DNA from: Desulfobulbaceae bacterium
GTDB taxonomy: Bacteria > Desulfobacterota > Desulfobulbia > Desulfobulbales > Desulfobulbaceae
Assembly (NCBI GenBank): GCA_015489765.1
Contig: WFZC01000046.1
Span: forward strand, 1-51,107
Length of the DNA: 51,107 nucleotides
Direction: 5' to 3'
How positions within the stretch are numbered: position 1 is the first letter of the stretch; each line of letters opens with the position of its first letter. A program made the position numbers and the translations under genes. The notes under the pieces were generated by a model. The model saw only the letters and a list, made by a program, of their open reading frames with translations. It searched no databases and was not told the DNA's origin. Of this stretch, positions 25,891 to 44,709 are shown piece by piece.

Positions 25891-26544
25891 TTACGTTGTT
25901 CTGTTTGGTTTTTCTGCAGGCCCTGCTTCTGCCTCTGCACAGGCCTTTTTCAGGGCGGCCCGATGGACATGGCCGGCATAATGAACCGGACTTTTGCCGG
26001 TTATCGGATCAAATCGTCCGGGATCAGCCGTACAGTGATACTGGACAAGCCTTGGCAGCAGAACAAGGGCATCGGCAACGGTTGAACCGACAACTTGGCT
26101 CAGCACCTCCCAGGAAGCACCGCAGGGTGCGCCCCGAACCACTTTGATATCGGTAATGATTCCGTTGTCCAGGTGTACCCGGTATTCGGGAAAGCCAAAA
26201 CAGCGGCCATAACTCCCCAACCGCTTGTGACGACCCAAACCGCAGCAGGTAAAGGGCGTATACCCCTGTTCATCGTGCTTGCCCGAAGAAACAACGGGAA
26301 TATCCTGTTGGCTGCACAGGCCGATAAGATAATGGGAAAGATCCGGATGGGTCAGGTAATTGAGGACAAGGTCGGCCCCGCGGATGGTCTCGGCGCCAAT
26401 ATACTCTTCTGGCTCATCAACAAATTCGGGCAGATATTCATCAATGGCAACAATGGTAACCCGGTCATCGGGATTGCCGTATTTTTTAATGCCGGCGGTC
26501 TTATTGCGGCCGGAACCGTTTTGTTCAACAACAAGAATATGCAT
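25891..26544 (-). CDS. DUF166 family protein (Cys form; DfsP-like)
   Basis: A 217-residue protein of DUF166, a family known from methanogens and Desulfobacterota whose function is unknown; some members are selenoproteins. Visible features are the N-terminal ILVVEQNGSGRNK region, a Cys-rich FTCCGLGR motif (C100-C101), a further Cys at 115, and RGAPCGASW (C141). These Cys residues look like a metal or redox site. All are encoded as Cys here. It lies immediately downstream of the terminator of the acetyl-CoA operon, so it has a separate transcript, but the neighbourhood supports a link with corrinoid or one-carbon metabolism (inference). No good Shine-Dalgarno is seen. Confidence 0.75.
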   Translation of the reverse strand: MHILVVEQNGSGRNKTAGIKKYGNPDDRVTIVAIDEYLPEFVDEPEEYIGAETIRGADLVLNYLTHPDLSHYLIGLCSQQDIPVVSSGKHDEQGYTPFTCCGLGRHKRLGSYGRCFGFPEYRVHLDNGIITDIKVVRGAPCGASWEVLSQVVGSTVADALVLLPRLVQYHCTADPGRFDPITGKSPVHYAGHVHRAALKKACAEAEAGPAEKPNRTT

Positions 26545-26627: not shown

Positions 26628-27230
26628 TCAGTCGGCAAAGGCCTTGTCCAGGGTTTTGGCCATCTTGGTGTTGATCACCTCGTCGATATGTTCCCTGGTC
26701 CAGATCTTGTCCTTGCGCACCGCCTTGGTCGCATTACCGTAACTGATGCGGCTTTTCATGCTGGAGACAAATTTCAGTCCTTTTTCAAGACGGGCCTTCA
26801 GCTCTTCTTCGCTCAACCCCTCGGCCTTGCCAAGCGGTCCAAGTTTCTTTATCTGTTCAGTGAACTCGGTAATCAAACGGACAAAACGGGGCGCCTCGGC
26901 GGCAGAGGCCCATTGGAGATCATAGCGCTCCCGACGGATGCCGATCTCGGCAAGGACCCGGTGAACAAGACTTTCCGCACCCATGGCATCATAATTACCA
27001 ACCTGGTAATGACATTCGCCAAGTTGTCAGCCGCCGGTAAAAATGCCGTCGGCCCCCTCAATAAATCCGCGTAGAATAAACGAGGGATCGACCCTGCCGG
27101 TACACATGACCCGAATGGTCCTCAGGTTGGGCGGGTACTGAAAACGGGATACCCCGGCCGCATCGGCCGCGGCATAACAGCACCAGTTACAGAGAAACCC
27201 CAGAATCCTGGGATTGAATTCATCACTCAT
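26628..27230 (-). CDS. mvhD: MvhD-like electron-transfer subunit with selenocysteine (Sec68)
   Basis: A 200-residue protein interrupted by one in-frame TGA at 27029-27027. Reading the TGA as Sec gives FTGG-U-QLGECHYQVGNY, where relatives have FVGGCHPGDCHY. The N-terminal part (GFLCNWCCYAAADAAG, and IRVMCTGRVDPSFI) is the classic MvhD [2Fe-2S] domain, which receives electrons from a hydrogenase or formate dehydrogenase and passes them to HdrA. The C-terminal 60 residues are a Lys/Glu-rich extension beyond the usual length of about 140. A hairpin ATTACC-AGGTT-GGTAAT lies 17 nt after the TGA. The ATG is 3 nt after the hdrA stop, with GAGG inside the end of hdrA, so the genes are coupled. Confidence 0.92.
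26994..27010 (-). promoter_or_regulatory. SECIS-like hairpin in mvhD
   Basis: A perfect 6-bp stem ATTACC/GGTAAT with loop AGGTT, beginning 17 nt downstream of the UGA. The position and the GGU in the apical loop match what SelB recognises in bacterial SECIS elements. Confidence 0.7.
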
Positions 27231-30371: not shown

Positions 30372-33300
30372 CTAAACAAGCGCCTTGGTCCTCTTTTCTA
30401 TCCTGACAGCGCAGACCTTGGCCTCGGCAATCTTGCACTTTGGATCAAGGGCATCGTTGGTCAACAGGTTTGCCGCCGCCTCCCGGTAATGAAACGGGAT
30501 AAATACCAGGCCCCGTTCAACCCGTTCGGTAATGCGCACCGGCAGGGTAATGGTGCCCCGCCGCGAACAGGCCCTGACGACCTCGCCATCCGCAAGCATC
30601 AGCTCTTCGGCATCCTCGGGATTCATTTCCACATAGGGAGAAGGCGCCGATTGCTCGAGAACCTCGGAACGCCTAGTCATTGTTCCGGTATGATACTGAT
30701 ACAAAACCCGTCCCGTTGACAGGACCAGGGGATATTCATCATCCGGTGATTCATCCGGTCCTGTCCACTCTATCGGGGTAAATAGCGCCTTGCCCCGGGC
30801 AAATTCGCCCTTATGCAGGGTCGGGGTACCGGGATGTTCCTCATCAAAACATGGCCACTGCAGGCCTCCGGACTCCAGGCGCCCATAGTTCATACCTGCC
30901 ATGGCCGGCCAGCATCGACGTATCTCCTCAAAGGTTGCGGCTGCGTCCATGGTTGTGTGGTTGCCTTTACCGATGATCCTGGTCGTCACCTGGTTGATGA
31001 TGGTCAGGTCATCCATGGCATTACCCGGGGGGTGAACCGCCTTGCGCACCCTCTGGACCCTGCGTTCGGTGTTGGTAAAGGTGCCGTCCTTTTCGGCAAA
31101 GGAAGCGGCGGGAAAAACCACATCGGCAAGCTCGGCTGTCTCGGTGAGAAAAATGTCCTGCACCACCAGTATTTCCAGCTGCTCCAAGGCCTTTTTGACA
31201 TGGGAGCTGTTGGGATCACTTAAAATGGGATTTTCGCCCATGATCCACATCCCCTTTACCTTGCCCTCAAGAATGGCGGCCGGCATTTCCGTTGCCGTCA
31301 AACCAGGAGCAGGGGAAAGCGGCGTGCCCCATATCTCTTCAAATTTCCTGCGGTTATTGTCGTCATCAACCCGCTGGTAGCCGGGATACATGAGAGGATT
31401 GCATCCCATGTCACTGGCGCCCTGCACGTTGTTCTGGCCGCGCAGCGGATTTATGCCAGCTCCTTCTTTTCCGAGATTGCCTGTCAGCAGGGCAAGATTG
31501 GCAAGGGCGCAGACATTGTCCGTACCCGAGGTATGCTGGGTGATACCCATGGTGTAATAAATACCTGCCCGGTCGGCCTGGGCGTACATCCTGGCCGCGG
31601 CCTCGATATCAGCGGCCGGAACTCCGGTGATCTTTTCGGCCCACTCAGGCGTGCAGTCCTGGACCGATTTCCTGAAACTTTCAAAATTTTCAGTGCGATC
31701 TGCTATATATTCCCTATCTTCAAGCCCATCTCGAAGGATAACATGACACAGCCCATTGATGAGGGCGCCGTCGGTTCCCGGGTGCTGGCGCAGCCACAGG
31801 GCAGAATCTCCCACCAGATCAATGCGGCGCGGATCGGCAACAATAAGTTTGCCGCCCTTTTTGACCGCCCTGCGCATGCGCACCGCAATAACGGGATGGG
31901 TTTCGGTTGTATTGGAACCAATCACCAGCAGGACCTGATTATCGACAATTGACTCGATGGTGTTGGTCATTGCCGCCGAGCCAAGGACTGTGACCAGACC
32001 GGTCACCGTGGGGCTGTGTCAGTACCTGGCGCAGTGGTCAACGTTATTGGTGCCCAGGGTGGAGCGGAAAAATTTCTGAAAGGCATAGTTTTCTTCGACC
32101 GTACACCGGGCCGATGAAAGCCCGGCCAGGCTGTCGGCGCCGTGCTCGCCGAGAATGCGGGCAAAGTGACCGGCCATGAAATCAAGGGCCTGCTCCCAGG
32201 TTGCCGGTTCAAGGGCTCCTCCCTTTTGCCGGCGGATAAGCGGGGTTTTCAGGCGATCCGGATGCTGGATAAAGGCGTGGCCAAACCTGCCCTTTACACA
32301 GAGATCGCCGTAATTGGGCGCGGCCTCCTTATCGGCGGTGGCCTCGAGCACGGTCTTACCCTTGACCTTGAGATCGATCTGGCAGCCGGTGCCGCAATAG
32401 GGACAGGTTGTTCTGATCGTGTTGACCACCTCGGACTGGACCGGAACTATTCTGTTTTTCTTGTTCAAGGCCCCGGTCGAGCAGTTGTCGACACAGTTCC
32501 CGCAGGAAACACAGTTGTCCTTAAAAATGATCTCGAGACCGACCGGTCTTCCCTTGTCATCAAAAGATTCCGCCTTCAGTTCAAGGGCATCATAGGAACA
32601 GGACCGCACACAACGGGTGCAGTATATACACTTGTTGCGGTCGACCCGGATGGCCCGGTGTGAATCGTCAATGGGATACAGGGGCACCTTGCCCATGCCG
32701 GTCTTGTTGATATTGACATTGAAATCAATATCGAGCCGTTTCAGATCACAGCGGTCAAAGGCCGTACAGCCACAGGAGAGACAGCGTTCTGACTCACGGC
32801 GGGCCATTTTTTCGGTAAACCCGAGTTTCACCTCGTCAAAATCCTGAATACAAACCTCGGGCGGCCGTTCCGGCATTTTTTCGCGCAGTTTGATCTCGAC
32901 ATTATCAAAATTTTTCAGGGACACGTCATCAAAGGAACGGCCCCTGGTAAAGTTGAACCGGCTTTCGGCCGGTTCCTTGGGTACCCCCATGACAAAGGCA
33001 TGGATATTGGCGGCGGCCCGGCGCGCGGACACCACCGCCTGGATCACCGATTTGGGACCGGTGGCCGCATCGCCGCCGGCAAATACCCCTTCAACGCTGG
33101 TCTGGGAAGAACGGGGATTGGCGACAAAGGTGCCCTTGGGAGAAATTTTCAGTCCCTGTTCAAGTTCACCGACAAGCATGTTTTCATCAACCGCAAACTG
33201 CCCAAGAGAACTGACCACCGTATCCACGGAAATGGAATTACCGGAATCCGGAATGGGAATTGGTTCACGCCGGCCGCGTTTATCCGGTTCGCCCAGTTTC

Positions 33301-34547
33301 ATCCGGATCAGATCGAGTTTCAGGCGGCTGCCGGTTTCACTGACACCGCAGATACCGGTCGGGCTGGCCATGAGCAGAAACTGAACCCCTTCTTTTTCCG
33401 CCTCGCGGATATTGCGCTGGTTGGCTGGCATCTCTATCCGGGCCCGGGGATAAATAACAGTGACCTGCTGCAGACCGAGACGGCGCAGGCTGCGTGCCAC
33501 CTCCATGGCAATGTTATTGCCGCCAATAACGGCCGCGCTGTTACCCAGGTCCGGCTTCTTGCCCTCATTGACCATGTGCAGAAAACGGGTGGCGCTGTAC
33601 ACATGCTCCCGGTCGGTACAGGGGACATGCATGGGCTGGTCGATACCGGCACCGATGGCGATAAAGGTGGCGTCAAATCCCATGTCCCGCAATTCCTGCA
33701 GGGTGAAATCCCGCCCCCATCGCTGGCTGAGACGTATGTTTATTCCCATCCGCAGGATGGTGTTTATCTCGTAATTAAGAACATCCTTGGGGATCTTGTA
33801 CTCGGGAAAGCCGTAGCGCAGGGCCCCGCCGAGCTGCGGCTCGGCTTCAAATATGGTTACATCATGCCCTTTTCTGGTCAGGAAAAAGGCGGCCGTCAAA
33901 CCGGCCGGGCCACCGCCGATAACCGCTATTCGCTTGCCGGTGGGTTTTTCCTTGGGGATACCGAGATCAATTTTGTTGGCCATGCACCAGTCGGCAACAA
34001 AACGTTTCAGGTGGTTGATGGAAACGGGCTCGTCAACAAGAATCCTGCGGCAACGGGTCTCGCAGAACCGGGGGCAGACCCGGCCCACGGAAAAGGGGAC
34101 CGGATTACGCTCCATAATCAGACGCAGGGCCTCTTCATACTCACCCTTGGCCACATGGGCGATATACCCTTGAACATTTATCTGGCCGGGACAGGTTAGA
34201 TTGCAGGGGGCCTTGCAGTCGCCGAAATGGGTCTGGGAGAGAATGGCCAGCCGTTCCTGACGATGGGCAATGACATCATTGGAATTGGTTTGAATTACCA
34301 TCCCATCCTGGGCCAGGGTGACACAGGCACGAAAAAGCCCTTCCGTTGCCATGGTGGAACTCAGACCATATTTTTCATAATCAAGGATCTGGACCACACA
34401 GATTTCGCACGGTTTTTCGGCAACAGTTCCCTTGAGCCAGCAAAGGGTGGGAATGGATATTCCGGACCGCTTAGCCACTTCCAGGATGGTCAGCCCTTTT
34501 TCGGCAATGATCTCATTTTCGTCTATGGTAACGGTAACTGTGGCCAT
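30372..34547 (-). CDS. fdhA: Formate dehydrogenase alpha subunit fused to a GltD/NfnB-like flavin module (Sec843)
   Basis: A 1391-residue molybdopterin/tungsten formate dehydrogenase interrupted by one TGA at 32021-32019. Decoding it as Sec gives DHCARY-U-HSPTVTGL, the catalytic position that is Sec or Cys in FdhA and FdhF. Order of domains: a [2Fe-2S] domain (C36, C47, C50, C75); a GltD/NfnB-like domain with a Cys-rich segment (CNLTCPGQINVQGY) and an FAD site (RIAVIGGGPAGLTAAFFL); two [4Fe-4S] ferredoxin motifs (CIYCTRCVRSC and CVSCGNCVDNC); then the catalytic domain with CPYCGTGC. It lies 78 bp upstream of hdrA. The set would interconvert CO2 and formate, with electrons to or from NAD(P)H, ferredoxin or HdrA. 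No clear Shine-Dalgarno precedes the ATG. Confidence 0.93.
31990..32006 (-). promoter_or_regulatory. SECIS-like hairpin in fdhA
   Basis: GTGACC-GGTCT-GGTCAC, a perfect 6-bp stem with a GGTCT loop, beginning 13 nt after the UGA. The loop sequence and the distance closely match the well-studied fdhF SECIS of E. coli. Confidence 0.8.
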
Positions 34548-34622: not shown

Positions 34623-35975
34623 TTACGCCGTGGGTTTCCACTCCTTGAGAAATGCGGGCAGGTGGCCGGCCTCTCTCGGACCGATTGTGATTGTCCAATC
34701 GGCCAGTTCCTCTTCAAGCTCACCCTTTATGGTAGCGAGATAGCCGGGGATAATCAGCTCCCGGTGTTTCACCTTGTCACAGATGCCCGACTTGTTGACA
34801 AAGGCGGCGATGAGATCGGCGCCAAACTTGCCGGCGGCCCAGGCGGTCAACACTGACAAGCCTTCGGTATCCTTGATGAGCAGCCAGGAAGGAACCTTGG
34901 ACCCTTCGATTTCACCGGACACGATAAAATAGGTCAGGGAGAAATTGCAGGTAATAAGAACCGGTGCATTCTCATCCGGCCCGCTGATAGGATAGATGTC
35001 CTCCTGGACAACCATGGGCCGCTGCGGATCGGTGAAGAGATTGAGCTGTTCCAGCAGCAGCGGAAAGAGAACATCGCCCTGGATGTCGGAGAGGACGACA
35101 ATGCCTGCGTATTTTGCCATCAAAACAGAGGCGATCATGGCCTCCATCATCAGATCGTCGGTCATTTCGCAGGGAAAGGTGATGGTCGGAAAACCCAGAG
35201 GTTTGAACTTTTCCTTTATCGCGGAACGACGGGCAACGATATTGTCCTCAAAACAGCCGCGCATGGTCCTGGCACCGGTATCGATTACCATGTCCTTGAC
35301 ACCGGCATCGACCAGTTTGCCAGCCAGATCGACCAGATCATCCAGATTTTTCCCCTTGACCCCGACAGGCGCCTTCAACTCCTTGCCAAGGGCGGCAAAA
35401 TCATCAAGATTATCAGCGGTCGCCCCGTAAAGCAGCGGGGTACGATCACCACAGGCGGCAGCGGCGGCCTTGATGTTCTCGGGGTTGTCGGACATCAGGA
35501 TAACAGCGGCTTTGGGAAGTTTTTCAATAACCTTTTCCGTAAGAGCGGTAAAGGCCGCCCCGTCTCCGGTGTCCTGCAATGCCACCAGATTGGCCCGCAT
35601 ATAGACCCCGACCCGTTCATACTCCATGGCGTTGAACCGCTCGATTTTGCCATCAATGGATGCTTCACCCTCGTCGGCCTTCATCAGGACGGCTATGCCG
35701 GTGGGATGTTCAAATCTCTTTTCATGCCGGAACAGACAGGTCTCGCCCCCGGAAACAAATTCAGCGTCACCAGAGCCGATGGAAATCGTGCGAATCGGCG
35801 GCGCCGATGCCTCGCCAATGGTTGCCTTGGCCTCTTCGCTGACATAAGGACATGTTTCGATCTCGGCCTGGCCGGCGGCAACTTTCATGGCAAAGGCCAG
35901 ACAGGTGGGAATGCCGCATTCGCCGCAATTCTTCTTGGGCAGCATTTTGAGAATCTGAATACCGGTTAACGCCAT
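34623..35975 (-). CDS. acsC: Corrinoid iron-sulfur protein large subunit (CFeSP gamma)
   Basis: Carries the methyl group on cobalamin from methyl-THF to acetyl-CoA synthase. The 450 residues start with the [4Fe-4S] domain (KKNCGECGIPTCLAFAMKVA, with the fourth Cys in ETCPY), followed by a TIM barrel and a C-terminal cobalamin-binding domain. AAGGAGG lies before the ATG. AcsD, the partner subunit, is encoded two genes upstream within the MetF fusion. The 289-bp gap to acsB contains a strong hairpin. Confidence 0.96.
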   Translation of the reverse strand: MALTGIQILKMLPKKNCGECGIPTCLAFAMKVAAGQAEIETCPYVSEEAKATIGEASAPPIRTISIGSGDAEFVSGGETCLFRHEKRFEHPTGIAVLMKADEGEASIDGKIERFNAMEYERVGVYMRANLVALQDTGDGAAFTALTEKVIEKLPKAAVILMSDNPENIKAAAAACGDRTPLLYGATADNLDDFAALGKELKAPVGVKGKNLDDLVDLAGKLVDAGVKDMVIDTGARTMRGCFEDNIVARRSAIKEKFKPLGFPTITFPCEMTDDLMMEAMIASVLMAKYAGIVVLSDIQGDVLFPLLLEQLNLFTDPQRPMVVQEDIYPISGPDENAPVLITCNFSLTYFIVSGEIEGSKVPSWLLIKDTEGLSVLTAWAAGKFGADLIAAFVNKSGICDKVKHRELIIPGYLATIKGELEEELADWTITIGPREAGHLPAFLKEWKPTA

Positions 35976-36264: not shown

Positions 36265-38472
36265 TCAGCCGATGGCCGTATCCATTTCAAGGGCGGGATG
36301 ACCTTTTTCCTTGAGAAACTGCAAGATTTCCTCTTCCGTGGTCCCCTGCTCCTCTGTGGCAATCATATCAAAGAGTTCAGGCATGCCAATCTCTTCACAC
36401 CGCTGGCGCAGTTTTTCCCCGATCTCCTCCTTGAGCATCTTGGGCAGCCAGACGACCCGCTTGAGCCCGCCTTCGGCCATAAACAGTTTACGGCTGGTCA
36501 GGTAATGCTTGGACACTCCCATGAAACCGGGCGTCTGCATGCCACCGCCCGCCATACCGGCCAGGGTGGTGAACTTCATGCCCGAGGGAGTCATGCCGCG
36601 ATAGTCACGATTGACCACCATTATGCCGTTGCACTGGGGCAGCATGGCGGCGATGGCCTCGAAACAGCCGCAGGCGGTCATCGGATTGTTCATCAGGGAG
36701 TAACAGCTCACCTCGGTTACGGCGCCACGGGATGCCTGGGCGACAAATTCGTTGATGCCGGTATAATAGCCATTGGCCTCATCCGTGCACTCACCCTTTT
36801 CAATGGGCTGGTTGGGACCGGTTGGATTGATCTGGTAGGACGCCTTGCCGTCAAGCCAGTTATAGGCACCGCACATACCGATCCGCTCGGGGGTGATGAC
36901 GCAGACGTGGCTGGGGGCAAAGGACTGGCACAGGGTGCAGGAGTAGAAGACATCTTCGGTTTCATCGGTCATGGAGCCAAGACGCAGGTCACGTTCCGCA
37001 TATACCTGTTTGGCCAGCTCCATGACCTCATCCACCTTGTCCTGGACCGTATAGATTTTGACCTGGACCTTGTCGAGGATGGCGCCGAATTCCTGGTGCA
37101 GCTTGCCGTGCAGAACCACACCGAGATGTTTGAAGGAAAAACCCTTTTCAACGGCCGCCTTGCCGATTCGGATCCACATGATATTGCGCTGGCCGATATG
37201 CATGATCCCCTGGATATAGTTCATCAGATGATGGAACTGGCGCTCGAGGATGGGCTCAAAATCGGATTGCATTTCCCGGCCCGCAACCTCGACCAGGATA
37301 CCGATGGGCAGGTTCTGGCCCTCTTCGATGTCGGCGATATCCGGGCCTTCCATGATAATTTTACCGTCTTCGACCTCATCCATTTCCTTGGATATGAGCA
37401 CCTCGACTCCGGTTGTCCGGCCGCCGCCGCATTCCATGAACAGGTCATCCTTGCGAATGCGCTCGCCTTCAAAGGCCGGACCAAAGGCCATGGGTATGTC
37501 GATCTTGGTGACACTTACCTTGAGGCCGCGCACCTCGATGGCCTTCTGGACGATCTCATCATGGGGCACATTGGAGACCACGTGTTCATAGGTACAGATA
37601 CCGGTGGGCAAGATTTCGGGAATATCGTAATCGGAGATGGTGGGAAAACCCCAGTTGATCGCACCGGCGGCATTGGCATACCATTCATCGGAAACAGGCC
37701 CGAATGCCATCACAAAGGCAAAGGTACGGTCCTTGTTGTAGAGCAGGTTTCCCTTATAATCGCCTGGCTTGATGCCACCAAATGCCAGAGCAACGCGGCA
37801 TGCGAATCCTATGGCGAAAACAGCGGAGGTGTATGACTTGCCAAAGGGAACAAGACGGGTATTCCAGCCGACCTGGACATCATTTTTGACCAGCAGTTCG
37901 GCCATGTTTTTACCCTCGCTCTGGTCATGCATGAAGATATAGAGATTCTTTTCCTGCAGCTCAAGGGCAATCTTGGATGCGACCTCCTTGTCGCTCGGCG
38001 TTCCCATTATGGCGGCAAATCCCGGGGCTGTGCCGTCGACAAATTCAACCCCGCGTTTACGGAAAATGACATCGTCGGCAGCGCCGAGAAAGAGATTATT
38101 GTCCGTCGGGTCTTCGGTCTTGGTGTAAAAATCAGGCTCATTGAGATAGCGTATGGCCTCGTACATTTCCTCGGCAAAAAAGGTTGCCATGCCGGCATCC
38201 AGCGCCGGAGCAAGGTAGGGGAGCCAGAGGTCCTCGGTCACCACGGCCGGCAGCAGGCTACGGCATTCCTGGAAAATATCTTTCATGTCACCGAGTTTTT
38301 CGATCTTGGCGCCAAGCATCGAATAAATAATAGGCAGAAAGTAGGCAGTGTTGGGAAAGGCGACTTCCTTCTCCGGTCCAAACTTGACCAATGCCTCTTC
38401 ATAAGTCTCCTCGGCCATGTCAATAATGTTCTTGGCGCCACGAATCGCTGCAGAACAGATAATCTTCGACAT
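36265..38472 (-). CDS. acsB: CO-methylating acetyl-CoA synthase
   Basis: Condenses CO, a methyl group and CoA to acetyl-CoA at the Ni-containing A-cluster. The 735 residues match the bacterial three-domain enzyme with an N-terminal CODH-contact domain. The A-cluster ligands are visible: CTLCQSFAPSHVC and, 10 residues on, MCGAYN (about 512-535) supply the [4Fe-4S] Cys, and the CGC of TACGCFEAI (about 600) bridges the nickels. CAGGAG lies before the ATG. It lies between metF-acsD and acsC. The same enzyme works in either direction (autotrophy or acetate oxidation), so the gene alone does not tell which. Confidence 0.97.
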   Translation of the reverse strand: MSKIICSAAIRGAKNIIDMAEETYEEALVKFGPEKEVAFPNTAYFLPIIYSMLGAKIEKLGDMKDIFQECRSLLPAVVTEDLWLPYLAPALDAGMATFFAEEMYEAIRYLNEPDFYTKTEDPTDNNLFLGAADDVIFRKRGVEFVDGTAPGFAAIMGTPSDKEVASKIALELQEKNLYIFMHDQSEGKNMAELLVKNDVQVGWNTRLVPFGKSYTSAVFAIGFACRVALAFGGIKPGDYKGNLLYNKDRTFAFVMAFGPVSDEWYANAAGAINWGFPTISDYDIPEILPTGICTYEHVVSNVPHDEIVQKAIEVRGLKVSVTKIDIPMAFGPAFEGERIRKDDLFMECGGGRTTGVEVLISKEMDEVEDGKIIMEGPDIADIEEGQNLPIGILVEVAGREMQSDFEPILERQFHHLMNYIQGIMHIGQRNIMWIRIGKAAVEKGFSFKHLGVVLHGKLHQEFGAILDKVQVKIYTVQDKVDEVMELAKQVYAERDLRLGSMTDETEDVFYSCTLCQSFAPSHVCVITPERIGMCGAYNWLDGKASYQINPTGPNQPIEKGECTDEANGYYTGINEFVAQASRGAVTEVSCYSLMNNPMTACGCFEAIAAMLPQCNGIMVVNRDYRGMTPSGMKFTTLAGMAGGGMQTPGFMGVSKHYLTSRKLFMAEGGLKRVVWLPKMLKEEIGEKLRQRCEEIGMPELFDMIATEEQGTTEEEILQFLKEKGHPALEMDTAIG

Positions 38473-38632: not shown

Positions 38633-41398
38633 TCAGGCCACCAGACCGTCGATAAGGGCCTTGGTCATGCTGATGGCCTTGGGATGGCGCATGATCAGTA
38701 CCTCGCCACCGGCCAGCATCATGCAGGATGCGGTCATGGCCTCCATCATGATGCCCCGCCGTTCCTGATCGCCAAGCAGTTCATCGCTTGCCAGCCCGAC
38801 CTCCTTGGTTTTCCATACCTCCCGGCCCAGGTTACAGATAATAGGAACCTGCAGCTTTTCATCCTTCTGGGTCAGGGCGGCTATGCGGATACGCTCCATG
38901 ACCGAATAGGTGTATTCAATACCATAGCCAAGGGCACCGATGGAGGGATCCATGAGTACGGTATCAAGGGGAACACCAAGATTTTCCAACAGAATATTGA
39001 GCTGTTTGGCCAGGTTGACATCAATGGGCGATGCAGCCACCATGGGATGGCCAAAGGCCATGGCCGTTGCCCCAATGGCCCGGTAATTGGCATCTTCCAG
39101 GGGAGCAAGACATACCTTTTTATCACTGATAAGAGAGGTGACATCGCGCAGGGTTTCCGTGTCCTTCTCGTTATTACCGCACCCCCAGACAATGATCGGC
39201 ACGTCAACGGCATCAATGATTGCAGCCGCATCCTTGGCCGCATCGGCAGAGGACCTGTTTTCCCCGTTGGGGTCGGTGCCGATCAGGTAGATGTTGAGGG
39301 CATCGGCCTTGTACTCATCAACACATTTTTTTGCCCAGGCAACGGGATTGTCCATGACATCATCAAAATACCTGGTCAGGGTTGCCGGCCAGTTATCAGG
39401 GGCGATATCCTGCACCTCCATGGCAATAAGCGGTTTATGGGGCTGGTTGCCCTCAAAAAGATGAAAGGGCAGCACCTCGGCTCCACCGACCGTGACAGCG
39501 GTATCGCCATTGCCGAGAACAACCTCCCTGATGGCGCCTGAATACTCCTGCTTATAGGAAGTCGGCGGTACCCTGGTGGCACGCTCGGCCAGGGGTGTTT
39601 CTTCCGCCTTCAAGCCGGGGGCCCCAAGTTCATCCGAAATTGAGCTGGCAGTTGATTCGGCCTGCCCCGCCTTATTGGCATCCTCTTTTGCTTGCTGCTC
39701 GGCCTTTGCCTTTTCCTCGGCTTCAGCCTTGGCGGCGGCCTCGGCCCTGGCCTTTTCTTCGGCCTCTTTTTTGGCCTTGGCCTCTGCTTCTGCCTTTGCC
39801 TTAGCCTCGGCCTCGGCTTTGGCCTTGGCTTCTGCCTCGGCTTTAGCCTTTGCTTCCGCTTCCGCTTTGGCCTTGGCTTCGGCCCGCGCCTTTTCTTCAG
39901 CGGCCTGTTTTGCCCTGGCCTCTTCTTCCGCCCCGGCCTCTGCCGCAGCTTTGATCTGAACATCCGGTTGTGCGGCTGCCGCCTTTTTAACTTTTTCCTG
40001 CTGCCCGGTTTCGGCAACAGGTTCGGGAGTGTCAGCGGGTTTTCCGGAACCGGCACCACCCGTGCTACCTACAGGGGGCTCCTTGCGTAAAATTGCTTCA
40101 GCACCGGCAAATTTCATCAGGGCTTCAAACTGATCATCACTTAATCCATAGGCCTTTTTCAAGGCTTCCAGCCCCAACTTCATGGATTCCAACGCCATCA
40201 GGCGTTCTTTTTCATTCATCTCATGTTCTCCTGCATCACTCTCGGCACCGGCGAATTTTTCGCCTGTAATTTCATTCTCAGGCCCACCTGCGGCCTGTTT
40301 TCTCAACGAATCGGCTTCTGCTCTTGCAGCAGCAATAATAGATGCCGCCTCCTCTTTTGCCCTGGCAAGGATTTCTTCCCCTGCCCCGGTTGTGTCAATA
40401 TCGGCAGCCGGTTCTTGTTCGCAAACAATAACCTTTTCCCGTACAGACGCTGCAACCGTTTCCGCGGCCACGGGCTCTTCAAAGACAGGTCGGGGCAACA
40501 ACCCTGCCCGTTCACAGATCTCGGCAACTGCCTCTTCCCACTCTATGGCCATGACATGGACACCGGCAACCCCGTCAATCTCCCTGACCTGGTTGATAAT
40601 GTCCACGCAAATATTGATTCCCTCTTCCTGTTTGTCTTTGGCCCCTTTCATACGGTCAATGACCTCGTCGGTCACATCCATACCCGGCACAAATTTTTTC
40701 ATATATCGGGCCATGCCAAGGGATTTGGGCGGGGTGACACCGGCCAGGATGGAAACCTTTTTATCAAGGCCCATGTCGCGGCACATCTCCATGAACCTGG
40801 CGAATTTCTCGACATTGTAAATAATCTGGGTCTGGATAAAATCAGCGCCGGCATTAACTTTTTTCCCCAATCGCACTGCCCTGAATTCAAAGGGATAGGC
40901 AAAGGGATTGGCGGCGGCGCCAAGGAAAAACCGAGGAGCCTTGCCCTTGATTTCCTCACCGCATTGAAATTTTTTCTCATCCCGCATGGCCCTGACCATG
41001 CCAAGCAGCTGGATGGAATCCATATCAAACACGCCTTTTGAGCCGGGATGATTACCAAATTTCTGATGGTCCCCGGTCAGGCACAGCAGGTTCTTCAGCC
41101 CCATGGCCGATGCGGCGAGCAGATCACTCTGCATGCCTATACGGTTTCTGTCCCGGCAGGTCATCTGGATCACCGGTTCAACTCCCTCTGACTGGGCGAT
41201 CAATCCGGCCCCAATGCTTGACATCCTGACTATGGCGGTCTGGCAGTCAGTGATATTGACGGCATCTACATTACCACGCAGAATTCGCGCCTTTTTCCTG
41301 ACCACCTCGGGATCGCTGTTTTTGGGCGGCCCAAGCTCGCCGGTAACGGCAAACTCACCGCTTGCAAGCACCCGCTCCAGATTACTCCCTGCTTTCAT
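38633..41398 (-). CDS. MetF-AcsD fusion: methylene-THF reductase joined to CFeSP small subunit
   Basis: One 921-residue frame. Residues 1-300 are a 5,10-methylene-THF reductase barrel (FAVTGELGPPKNSDPE, CLTGDHQKFGNHPG, GADFIQTQIIYNVEKF). Residues 300-393 are a charged linker. Residues 394-440 form a small helical segment starting with MNEKERL. Residues 484-580 are an Ala/Glu/Lys tract with repeating KAEAEAKA units. Residues about 605-921 are the corrinoid protein small subunit AcsD (EVLPFHLFEGN, PSIGALGYGIEYTYSVMER). AAGGAGG precedes the ATG. The fusion would hold the enzyme that makes methyl-THF next to the methyl acceptor. An in-frame ATG at 40219 has GGAGA 7 nt upstream, so a separate 528-residue AcsD could also be made. 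No MetV partner gene is present. Confidence 0.93.
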   Translation of the reverse strand: MKAGSNLERVLASGEFAVTGELGPPKNSDPEVVRKKARILRGNVDAVNITDCQTAIVRMSSIGAGLIAQSEGVEPVIQMTCRDRNRIGMQSDLLAASAMGLKNLLCLTGDHQKFGNHPGSKGVFDMDSIQLLGMVRAMRDEKKFQCGEEIKGKAPRFFLGAAANPFAYPFEFRAVRLGKKVNAGADFIQTQIIYNVEKFARFMEMCRDMGLDKKVSILAGVTPPKSLGMARYMKKFVPGMDVTDEVIDRMKGAKDKQEEGINICVDIINQVREIDGVAGVHVMAIEWEEAVAEICERAGLLPRPVFEEPVAAETVAASVREKVIVCEQEPAADIDTTGAGEEILARAKEEAASIIAAARAEADSLRKQAAGGPENEITGEKFAGAESDAGEHEMNEKERLMALESMKLGLEALKKAYGLSDDQFEALMKFAGAEAILRKEPPVGSTGGAGSGKPADTPEPVAETGQQEKVKKAAAAQPDVQIKAAAEAGAEEEARAKQAAEEKARAEAKAKAEAEAKAKAEAEAKAKAEAEAKAKAEAEAKAKKEAEEKARAEAAAKAEAEEKAKAEQQAKEDANKAGQAESTASSISDELGAPGLKAEETPLAERATRVPPTSYKQEYSGAIREVVLGNGDTAVTVGGAEVLPFHLFEGNQPHKPLIAMEVQDIAPDNWPATLTRYFDDVMDNPVAWAKKCVDEYKADALNIYLIGTDPNGENRSSADAAKDAAAIIDAVDVPIIVWGCGNNEKDTETLRDVTSLISDKKVCLAPLEDANYRAIGATAMAFGHPMVAASPIDVNLAKQLNILLENLGVPLDTVLMDPSIGALGYGIEYTYSVMERIRIAALTQKDEKLQVPIICNLGREVWKTKEVGLASDELLGDQERRGIMMEAMTASCMMLAGGEVLIMRHPKAISMTKALIDGLVA
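39674..39913. repeat. Coding tandem repeat (24-bp unit) in the MetF-AcsD linker
   Basis: About eight to ten imperfect 24-bp units encode the octapeptide KAEAEAKA and variants. Codons vary between units, so this is an old repeat held at the protein level more than a fresh DNA duplication. Alternating acidic and basic residues predict a single stable charged helix. Confidence 0.75.
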
Positions 41399-41596: not shown

Positions 41597-43585
41597 TCAA
41601 TGCCCACCCTGGCCGCAGCCCATTCCGGGCAAGGCCTTGCCTTCCAGTTCACGGCGCATCTGCATATCCATGAGCACCCGTTCCTGCTTCTTGTTAATGC
41701 CAAGGGCCTCACGTTTTTCATCGATGGCAGCTATCATTGCCCGGGCATGCTTGATCGGGTCTTTTTCAACCCCCCAACAGGCGCCGTAATCCTCTTTCAG
41801 TCCTTCAAGAATATATTGGGAGAACTTTTTGGCGCCGGTCACCGGCAGATCCTGGAAGATAACATGGGCACCGCTGGTAACAAAATACTGCCCGATGGCG
41901 ACCGCCTTTTCGCTCATCCACAGCGGCGCCGAACCAACAGCGGGCAGCTGGGAAATATCATCGCCAAGACCACCTTCATTGACCATTTCCGTCAGGGCAA
42001 TCAGCAGGCGGGAATTATCCACGCAGGACCCCACATGCAGGACAGGCGGCATACCAACGGTTTCACAGACCTCGCGCAAGCCGTCACCGGCATATTCGGT
42101 GGCAGCCTCCGGCCTGAGCAGACCACGGCGGCCAAGGGCCTGGGCCGCACAGCCGGTGGCCAGGACAAGGACATTGTTCTTGATCAATTCAACGGCGATC
42201 TTGAAGTGAACATCATCGGAATACTTGTAATGCTCACACCCGACCAGGGCGCCGACCCCCCGGATGCGGCCGTTAATGATATTGTCATTCAACGGCCGGT
42301 AGGACTGGCGAAAACGACCGCCCAGCATGTAGTTGATGGTCTCGTGGGAGAAGCCGACCACCACGTCCAGTTTTTTATTTTCCGGGATGTAAAAATCACC
42401 CCGTTTTTTGAAGTTGGCAATGGCATGTTTGAGGATCTTCTTGGCTGACTCATAGGCCGCATCTTCCTCAAACTGGATATGAACGGCATCCGGTATCTTG
42501 GCCCGGTAATTGGTGGTGATAACATCGGTGTGCTTGCCCTTGACGACCTGGGCCACCGACTGCATGATGCACTGGACATCGACAACCATTGCCTCCACCG
42601 CGCCGGTGGCCAGCACCATTTCCTGCTGGATAAAAGAACCTGCAACCGGGATGCCGCGCCGCATGAGAATTTCATTGCCGGTGCAGCACACGCCGGCCAG
42701 ATTGACCCCCTTGGCGCCCACCTTTTTAGCCAGGGCAATGATTTCATCATCATCGGCGGCCAGGCACAATGACTCGGCAAGCAGCGGTTCGTGTCCGTGT
42801 ACGGTCACATTGACCATATCTTCCCGCAGGACTCCAAGATCAACGATGGCCCGTTTCGGAACCGGGGTGCCAAACATTATATCGGTCAATTCGGTGGAGA
42901 GCATGGAAGAACCCCAGCCATCGGCCAGCGAGGTGCGAGCCGCCTGTTTCATAATGTTTTTATACTCCTGGTCAACACCCATATGGGTGCGGTGCATCAT
43001 CTCCACGACTTCCCGATCAATGCCCCTGGGTTCGACTCCCATCTCCTTCCATATCTTCTGCTGTTTTTCCGGGGCCCGTTTAAGCATGGTCAAAGTGCCT
43101 TCCTGCTGACCAAACTCGGCCAAGGCGCGTTCACCAAGCTCCAGGGCAATTTCATTTTTATCCCGGCCTTCGGTTTCAATGCCGAAAATGGCCGCCATCT
43201 TGTGGAGTTTGGCCACATCCTTGATCTCATGGGGAGTTTCCCCCTTGGCAGTGGCAATGAACCCCCGCACCATTTCCCGGGCATGATCGGTATGGGCCGC
43301 TGTGCCGGCGGCAACGATACGGGCGAAATTTCGGGCGGCAACGGTGTCGGCGGTGGCGCCGCAGACCCCGACCATGGCATCAACGCCGTCAATGATCTGG
43401 CACGGCCCCATGTTGCAGATCCGGCAGCAGGTGCCGCCGGAACCGAAAAGACAGGCGGACATGCCGCGGTCTTCAAGGCGGTCGTAGGCGGTCCGCACCT
43501 GTTTTGCCAAGTCCTGGTTTAGGAGATCCAGGGTTGAATCTCCGGTTATCGAATTACACGATTGACATCCTTTTATATCCGTCAT
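41597..43585 (-). CDS. cooS: Anaerobic carbon monoxide dehydrogenase, catalytic subunit
   Basis: Ni-Fe-S enzyme interconverting CO2 and CO for the acetyl-CoA synthase (AcsA/CooS type). The start at ATG 43585 (662 residues) is favoured because AGGAG lies about 7 nt upstream and the protein then begins MTDIKGCQSC, with the D-cluster Cys; a longer frame reaches 43645. The B/D-cluster region CLFGSGGTCCRICNMGPC and C-cluster segments (GVCCTGNEILMRRG, ATGCAAQALGRRGLL, LHVGSCVDNSR) are visible. No cooC nickel-insertion ATPase is encoded next to it. It lies between folD and metF-acsD. Confidence 0.96.
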   Translation of the reverse strand: MTDIKGCQSCNSITGDSTLDLLNQDLAKQVRTAYDRLEDRGMSACLFGSGGTCCRICNMGPCQIIDGVDAMVGVCGATADTVAARNFARIVAAGTAAHTDHAREMVRGFIATAKGETPHEIKDVAKLHKMAAIFGIETEGRDKNEIALELGERALAEFGQQEGTLTMLKRAPEKQQKIWKEMGVEPRGIDREVVEMMHRTHMGVDQEYKNIMKQAARTSLADGWGSSMLSTELTDIMFGTPVPKRAIVDLGVLREDMVNVTVHGHEPLLAESLCLAADDDEIIALAKKVGAKGVNLAGVCCTGNEILMRRGIPVAGSFIQQEMVLATGAVEAMVVDVQCIMQSVAQVVKGKHTDVITTNYRAKIPDAVHIQFEEDAAYESAKKILKHAIANFKKRGDFYIPENKKLDVVVGFSHETINYMLGGRFRQSYRPLNDNIINGRIRGVGALVGCEHYKYSDDVHFKIAVELIKNNVLVLATGCAAQALGRRGLLRPEAATEYAGDGLREVCETVGMPPVLHVGSCVDNSRLLIALTEMVNEGGLGDDISQLPAVGSAPLWMSEKAVAIGQYFVTSGAHVIFQDLPVTGAKKFSQYILEGLKEDYGACWGVEKDPIKHARAMIAAIDEKREALGINKKQERVLMDMQMRRELEGKALPGMGCGQGGH

Positions 43586-43670
43586 AGCGAGGCTCCTGGA
43601 AGAGAAGTCTTGGACAACGGGAAAATTGCCTGTACAGCCGGGCAACTACCCCTTGGTATATATCATCGGT

Positions 43671-44558
43671 TTATTCCAGGCCAGCAGCCATTCGGGCGGC
43701 CTGGACCGTATTTTTCATAAGCATGGTAATGGTCATCGGGCCAACACCGCCCGGCACCGGAGTAATGGCGGCCGCCTTTTCCTTGACCGACTCGAACTCA
43801 ACGTCACCGGCAAGGATGGCCTTGCCGCTCTCGCTCTTGCCGATACGGTTGACACCGACATCGATAACAACCACCCCTTCCTTGACCTGGTCCGCCTTGA
43901 TCATATTGGCGACCCCGGCAGCCACGATCAGGATATCGGCCCTGCGGGTATGAAAATCCATGTCCCTGGTCCGGGTGTGACAAAGCGTTACCGTGGCATT
44001 ACCTCCGTCACGCTTCTGCAGCATCAGGTTGGCAACCGGCTTGCCGACAATATTGGAACGTCCGACCACCACCACCTCGGCGCCGCTGGTCTCGACTCCT
44101 GAGCGCTGCAGCAGCTCAAGGACGCCATGGGGGGTACAGGGCAGAAAGCAGGGCTCGCCAAGCACCATCTTGCCGACATTGACCGGATGAAAGCCGTCCA
44201 CGTCCTTGTCCGGATCAATGGCATAAAGTACCTTAGCCTCATCAATGTGTTTCGGCAGGGGGAGCTGGACCAGGATGCCGTGAATTGCCGGGTCATTGTT
44301 GTATTTGTCAACCAGGGCAAGCAGGTCCTCTTCACTGGTATCGGCAGGCAGGGTTACCTGTTCGGAATGAATGCCAAGATTATGAGCGGTTTTGTTTTTG
44401 GCGGCAACGTAGGACTGGGAAGCCGGATTGTCTCCAACCAGCACGGTGACAAGACCGGGAACCAGATCATGTTCCTCTTTAAGCCGGGCAACCTCGGCCC
44501 GCAACTCTTCGCGAATCGCCTTTGCAGTTTCGGTTCCGCTGATTATTTGTGCACTCAT
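43671..44558 (-). CDS. folD: Methylene-THF dehydrogenase / methenyl-THF cyclohydrolase
   Basis: Bifunctional folate enzyme, steps 3 and 4 of the methyl branch. The 295 residues start at ATG 44558, chosen because AAGGAG lies 5 nt upstream and the family begins this way (MSAQIISGTETAKAIREE). The frame runs further up to 44690 without a ribosome site. Motifs are YVAAKNKTAHNLGI with the catalytic Lys, VQLPLPKHID, and VVVGRSNIVGKPVANLML. It is the first gene of the acetyl-CoA operon. The formyl-THF ligase (fhs) that should precede it in the pathway is not in the window. Confidence 0.96.
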   Translation of the reverse strand: MSAQIISGTETAKAIREELRAEVARLKEEHDLVPGLVTVLVGDNPASQSYVAAKNKTAHNLGIHSEQVTLPADTSEEDLLALVDKYNNDPAIHGILVQLPLPKHIDEAKVLYAIDPDKDVDGFHPVNVGKMVLGEPCFLPCTPHGVLELLQRSGVETSGAEVVVVGRSNIVGKPVANLMLQKRDGGNATVTLCHTRTRDMDFHTRRADILIVAAGVANMIKADQVKEGVVVIDVGVNRIGKSESGKAILAGDVEFESVKEKAAAITPVPGGVGPMTITMLMKNTVQAARMAAGLE

Positions 44559-44680
44559 ACATACTCCTTGCCTTGCAGTTATCGATAGAAACCAGAAATT
44601 TTCATGTGGATACCAACGGGGTTGAAGAACGGCTATCCCGAGGGAGGTAAACCTGTAGAACAGAACAGATAAGAGGCTGC

Positions 44681-44709
44681 AGTAAAGCACAAAACAATCA
44701 TTTTTTCAA
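44681..44709 (-). promoter_or_regulatory. Candidate promoter of the acetyl-CoA operon
   Basis: On the minus strand TTGAAA (44709-44704), 17 nt, TTTACT (44686-44681), about 120 bp before the folD start. A perfect inverted repeat TTGAAT-attc-ATTCAA (44742-44757) lies about 33 bp upstream of the -35 and could be an operator. Confidence 0.35.

Follow-up and report, generated by a model that had tools for sequence, protein, structure and literature searches.

The window, meaning the whole 51,107-nucleotide stretch of Desulfobulbaceae DNA analysed here, carries an operon on its minus strand with the gene order FolD, CooS, MetF-AcsD, AcsB, AcsC, formate dehydrogenase, an HdrA-like protein and MvhD (Table 1). 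The MetF-AcsD gene is a single frame for 921 residues that runs from 41398 to 38633 without an internal stop, and it joins a methylene-THF reductase (MetF, MTHFR) to AcsD, the small subunit of the corrinoid protein CFeSP. This joining is genuine. It had been proposed in the original prediction, with correct coordinates and no strand given, as one frame with both halves intact and a product near 98 kDa, and it is borne out by the frame, by two Pfam domains, by the two TIM barrels of the structure model and by the relatives, the calculated mass being 98.5 kDa.

Table 1. Positions of the metF-acsD gene, its parts and the neighbouring genes in the window.
Feature	Position	Strand	Basis
FolD, same operon	43671..44690	minus	PF02882/PF00763
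CooS/AcsA, CO dehydrogenase, same operon	41597..43645	minus	TIGR01702
metF-acsD fusion gene, 921 aa, 98.5 kDa	38633..41398	minus	one frame from ATG to stop; 125 loci with a homologous fusion
MetF (MTHFR) TIM-barrel domain, residues 1-304	40487..41398	minus	PF02219 at 7-299; TIM barrel in model; PDB MTHFR matches; E21, D110, Q191 invariant
First linker helix, residues 339-370 (AKEEAASIIAAARAEADSLRKQA)	40289..40384	minus	model; AKAEAExIIAAAR consensus
Internal Shine-Dalgarno AGGAG, within codons 389-391 (GCA GGA GAA)	40228..40232	minus	GGA at codon 390 in 71/71, zero parsimony changes against a median of 23; third base of codon 389 always a purine
Conserved linker island, helical hairpin, residues 391-436 (MNEKERxMALESVxxGLxALKKAYGLSDDQFEAL)	40091..40228	minus	conservation; helices in model
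In-frame ATG (residue 394) as internal start, 8 nt downstream of the Shine-Dalgarno	40217..40219	minus	ATG and Shine-Dalgarno in 71/71, unique to this one of the 18 conserved Met columns
Predicted second product, 528 aa, ~56 kDa, AcsD preceded by the helical hairpin and the long helix	38633..40219	minus	translation
Long single Ala/Glu/Lys helix, residues 490-575, ~13 nm if straight	39674..39931	minus	model
AcsD (CFeSP small subunit) TIM-barrel domain, residues 612-921	38636..39565	minus	PF03599; matches 4djd_D, 2h9a_B, 9fzy_E
AcsB, acetyl-CoA synthase, same operon	36265..38472	minus	NF040764
AcsC, CFeSP large subunit, same operon	34623..35975	minus	NF003195
Formate dehydrogenase catalytic chain	30372..34547	minus	
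HdrA-like protein, 940 aa	27234..30056	minus	
MvhD-like protein	26628..27230	minus	
DUF166 protein	25891..26544	minus	

The MetF half matches the Pfam profile PF02219 (MTHFR) with an E-value of 2.7e-42 and 145.5 bits against a cut-off of 24, and positions 2–287 of the 287 in the profile are covered, indicating a whole flavin TIM barrel; in the structure model this barrel matches solved MTHFRs by Foldseek. In the alignment with solved MTHFRs, D110 and Q191 fall on the GD and TQ motifs; E21 lies just ahead of the PPK motif, and all three residues are invariant. We take them to be the catalytic Glu, Asp and Gln, which are E28, D120 and Q183 in E. coli MTHFR. The closest NCBIfam model is NF006396 (PRK08645) with 222 bits, under its cut-off of 453. 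That model represents the bifunctional homocysteine methyltransferase/MTHFR, in which an MTHFR is likewise fused to a neighbouring pathway step, but with another partner domain and in another pathway.

The AcsD half matches PF03599 (CdhD) at residues 625–868 with an E-value of 3e-44, far above the Pfam cut-off, and its score also exceeds the cut-off of NF003376 in NCBIfam; with NF040759 (WLP_AcsD) it scores 313, below the cut-off of 430. The match to chain 2h9a_B has an E-value of 3e-81, and the barrel of the model aligns by Foldseek to 4djd_D with 42% identity and a TM-score of 0.89 by target length, the solved CFeSP small-subunit chains showing 38–43% identity overall. As expected for an AcsD, the partners AcsB and AcsC share the operon with the fusion. 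The whole TIM-barrel subunit and the adjoining AcsB and AcsC are common to this protein and the AcsD/CdhD subunits of known structure (PDB 2h9a, 4djd, 9fzy), but the known chains have 310–323 residues and the barrel at the start, whereas here AcsD is fused or has a 200-residue helical N-terminal extension.

Between the two barrels (residues 1–304 and 612–921) the structure model places a mostly helical linker of about 306 residues, and this part of the model is of low confidence. The link of about 300 residues with a charged Ala/Glu/Lys helix that had been noticed earlier agrees with this length and with the helix predicted at residues 490–575, the length of which differs among species. The linker ranges from 245 to 322 residues, and residues 387–440 are much better conserved than the remainder. 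Fusions from another clade (L074, L080, L114 and L123) have linkers with a coiled coil and TPR repeats, the latter detected by Pfam in L080 and L123, and the linkers of the TPR clade also contain a motif related to the hairpin island of Desulfobulbia. The idea that the longer linkers conceal AcsE or another enzyme was rejected, as they hold TPR repeats and no enzymes.

Matches were found in 90 of 96 related genomes, and all but a few of the intact ones have the two domains in one frame. A search of genome contigs gave 78 loci, among them those of Candidatus Electronema aureum, Desulfocapsa, Candidatus Desulfobulbus rimicarensis and Thermodesulfatator, and 395 genomes from across the phylum added fused frames in further families, most other matches there being separate MetF proteins of about 310–340 residues. 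The fused loci total 125, a number in which some genomes count twice, and they fall into three clades: Desulfobulbia, Thermodesulfobacteria and a third with TPR-repeat linkers. An unfused Chloroflexi MetF (L109) is the one sequence from outside the phylum. A search across Desulfobacterota for both domains on one protein had been suggested as a check of the fusion, with a break at the junction in independent assemblies as its refutation. The fused frames above answer the former; as to the latter, the frame is intact in single-contig genomes (G012, G049, G053, G062, G292, G193, G354 and G392) and broken in a few MAG copies. In these copies (L042, L058 and L063) the break lies in the repetitive linker, probably by assembly error or real repeat polymorphism. 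They could be taken to favour an assembly chimera or a frameshift error that joined two genes, but the fusion recurs in single-contig genomes and in a large number of independent assemblies at 54–99% identity, which contradicts this and leaves it hardly any probability, and chimera or contamination is ruled out by the 125 fused loci.

In unrooted trees of each domain all unfused rows are on one side of a branch, with support of 97/88 for MetF and 100/99 for AcsD, and both trees divide the fused rows into the same three groups. A single fusion event would suffice and is consistent with the trees, although short of proof because these are unrooted. In family f64 (G433, G451) MetV-MetF and AcsD-AcsB are unfused neighbours, and stand-alone AcsD proteins begin directly at the barrel without any linker. 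The fusion is old, and the joining of methyl branch and CFeSP is conserved.

The two other fused clades have the gene order FolD-CooS-HdrA-MvhD-HdrC-MvhD-MetV-[MetF-AcsD]-AcsB-AcsC-AcsE-Fdh, in which the fusion joins the end of an electron-carrier/MetV/MetF block to the start of a CFeSP/ACS block. AcsE is thus located downstream of AcsC in these clades and not between MetF and AcsD, which had been assumed to be its normal place. Nor is AcsE skipped, as had been suggested: the window genome encodes it as a separate gene on another contig (L111, C337), and 28 of 30 Desulfobulbia genomes that carry the fusion have it as an unfused gene. Since AcsE is present separately, methyl transfer from methyl-THF to the corrinoid still requires it. 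The separate MetV (DUF5981) expected with a MetVF-type reductase is encoded in the window genome on contig C31 (L112/L139, 223 aa), adjoining HdrC and a second MvhD, and MetV-type (PF12225) genes are present in 29 of the 30 fused genomes examined, almost all of which include a separate frame of MetV size; the only miss is a genome that is 89% complete. PF12225 was not matched in five relatives without the fusion. In Desulfobulbia the MetV block and AcsE have moved away from the fusion yet are retained, and as MetV, HdrC and AcsE of the window genome are on other contigs their link to the fusion rests on the other clades.

The reductase of acetogens such as Clostridium ljungdahlii (PMC8515935; PMC8760232) is of the MetVF type and has in common with the protein described here the MTHFR barrel and a separate MetV, and the HdrABC/MvhD partners known from Moorella have their counterpart in the MetV, HdrC, HdrA and MvhD genes adjoining MetF in the other fused clades. 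The C-terminal linker and AcsD of the MetF in the window have not been reported for acetogen MetF. It is fairly likely, as part of the overall explanation given below, that the MetF half is a Wood-Ljungdahl methylene-THF reductase of the MetV-dependent (MetVF) type. The fused MetF is not the only MTHFR of the genome, because contig C226 encodes MetF and MetV in a single chain, a protein whose identity with the fused MetF half is only about 30%. This 508-residue protein (L113, 1432–2958, minus strand) has its like in most relatives, as frames of 509–656 residues with a MetV-type domain.

Within the linker, an internal Shine-Dalgarno sequence is located upstream of an in-frame ATG. All 71 distinct Desulfobulbia sequences have the codon pattern [GC(A/G) or TCA] GGA GA(A/G) ... 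ATG, so that AGGAG or GGGAG is always found 8 nt before the invariant start codon. Codon 390 is GGA throughout although GGA makes up 16% of the glycine codons in these genes, the next-best conserved glycine column having 39% GGA. On a tree built from the two domains it shows no synonymous change, against 8 to 34 in the other 43 conserved glycine columns and a median of 23 taken over all 44. The third base of codon 389 is a purine in all sequences, compared with a median of 33% in 63 alanine columns, and the region around the internal start is the top window of synonymous conservation in the fusion gene. When the 18 conserved methionine columns were scanned (Met 1 unscored, its upstream DNA being excluded), only that at residue 394 had a Shine-Dalgarno sequence in every sequence. 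Around a point one codon past the ATG the RNA has less structure than it does over most of the gene (median rank 13%), and an A-rich sequence follows. Conserved Shine-Dalgarno and start codon within the frame, as expected of a gene with two products, are thus both present. A programmed frameshift at this site was considered and rejected, as there is no in-frame slippery heptamer and the codons after the ATG vary. In the Thermodesulfobacteria and TPR clades the internal signal was looked for and not found, the many weak Shine-Dalgarno-like matches being nowhere consistent, and the simplest reading is that it was gained in Desulfobulbia.

Because Shine-Dalgarno and ATG are invariant and the GGA core is without synonymous change, the Desulfobulbia gene probably yields both the 98.5 kDa fusion and, as a second protein, a 528-residue AcsD of about 56 kDa. 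Further genes with in-frame internal starts are those of IF2, ClpB and CheA. The Cas11b protein likewise arises from an in-frame internal start within cas8b (PMC11899642), and such genes have in common with metF-acsD a Shine-Dalgarno sequence and ATG inside the frame, by which the one gene also yields its C-terminal part as a protein, but here the site lies between two distinct enzymes of the pathway and the use of the start is predicted. The original prediction held that peptides showing only separate MetF and AcsD would refute the fusion. It had missed the internal ribosome-binding site, and since this conserved site predicts a product of about 56 kDa, such an AcsD is compatible with the fusion. 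A separate AcsD is not needed everywhere, as two other fused clades are without the internal signal.

The best overall explanation, which we hold with fair confidence, is that the fusion acts as a tether and that the gene has a second, AcsD product. The MetV-dependent MetF would be held to the CFeSP small subunit, linking the methyl-making module (MetV with HdrA/HdrC/MvhD-type electron carriers, and MetF) to CFeSP. The MetF half would produce methyl-THF, and separate AcsE would dock on CFeSP and methylate the corrinoid of the AcsC-AcsD dimer, which would then serve AcsB/CODH; that AcsE acts in between follows from the known pathway chemistry and the known AcsE-CFeSP complex (4djd). The long helix, the helical hairpin and, in one clade, the TPR repeats would serve as a spacer and docking arm. 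In Desulfobulbia the internal ribosome-binding site would give AcsD without MetF, letting CFeSP outnumber the reductase. We infer initiation at the internal site, and also that the tether aids assembly or local methyl-THF supply and that the stoichiometry is set in this way. The chances are about even for a more specific form, where one gene gives a tethered methyl-branch/CFeSP protein and free AcsD, translation sets the ratio of reductase-bound to free CFeSP, and Hdr/MvhD-MetV-MetF~AcsD-AcsC-AcsB/CODH are physically assembled.

The alternatives differ in what they make of the linker and of the internal signal. The gene could be an ordinary domain fusion for co-expression with an inert linker, its Shine-Dalgarno-like motif being a coincidence or a consequence of the conserved peptide DAGEHEM. 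Neighbouring pathway genes commonly become fused, metF and acsD are neighbours where unfused, and the peptide around the site is itself conserved; a conserved peptide does not, however, explain the exclusive use of a glycine codon as infrequent as GGA or the purines of codon 389, and we consider this unlikely. It is about as unlikely that the motif pauses ribosomes, without initiation, so that the MetF barrel folds first. The site lies about 90 residues past the barrel, which would just have left the ribosome, but pausing needs no invariant ATG at exactly 8 nt, a fully conserved Shine-Dalgarno is found at none of the 17 other conserved methionine columns, and the A-rich, less structured sequence after the site also speaks against it. 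A true substrate channel would hand methyl-THF from MetF straight to AcsE docked on the fused CFeSP, and the known AcsE-CFeSP complexes (4djd), near which the fusion would put MetF, are in its favour. Against it are the long flexible linker and the helix of about 13 nm, as well as the free AcsD product, which would leave some CFeSP without MetF, so that such a channel has a similarly small probability. The length and variability of the linker speak against tight channelling, and the direct delivery of the methyl branch onto the CFeSP/ACS complex in the original prediction is for the same reason not supported.

To our knowledge MetF and AcsD are separate proteins in acetogens, and the Wood-Ljungdahl pathway is usually depicted as separate soluble enzymes. 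A full-text literature search found no paper describing MetF/MTHFR fused to AcsD/CdhD. In T. dismutans TDIS_1006 is given only as MTHFR, three genes before AcsE (TDIS_1009) (PMC4911364), a spacing that fits the gene order of the fused clades. The D. rimicarensis paper reports metF and acsABC, acsD being absent from its list (PMC7117923); the contig nonetheless carries the fusion (L044). The Dissulfurimicrobium paper lists MTHFR separately (PMC8780430). Pathway annotation can thus be corrected where genome papers give the gene only as MTHFR or omit AcsD. That a whole group of sulfur bacteria, among them cable bacteria and sulfur disproportionators with an autotrophic metabolism, keeps a reductase and its downstream acceptor in one chain is genetic evidence pointing to an assembly that unites the methyl branch with the CODH/ACS side; assembly and channelling can be tested in cultivated species, and the internal start predicts two measurable products.

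Downstream of AcsC, the formate dehydrogenase chain has one in-frame TGA in the context NNVDHCARY-U-HSPTVTG, the usual place of selenocysteine, and also contains NAD(P)H-type flavin and Fe-S domains. The MvhD-like gene, adjoining that of the HdrA-like protein, has an in-frame TGA in GIFTGG-U-QLGECHY, likely a second selenocysteine, and SelB is encoded in the window genome (C369). A DUF166 protein is encoded near these Hdr/MvhD genes.
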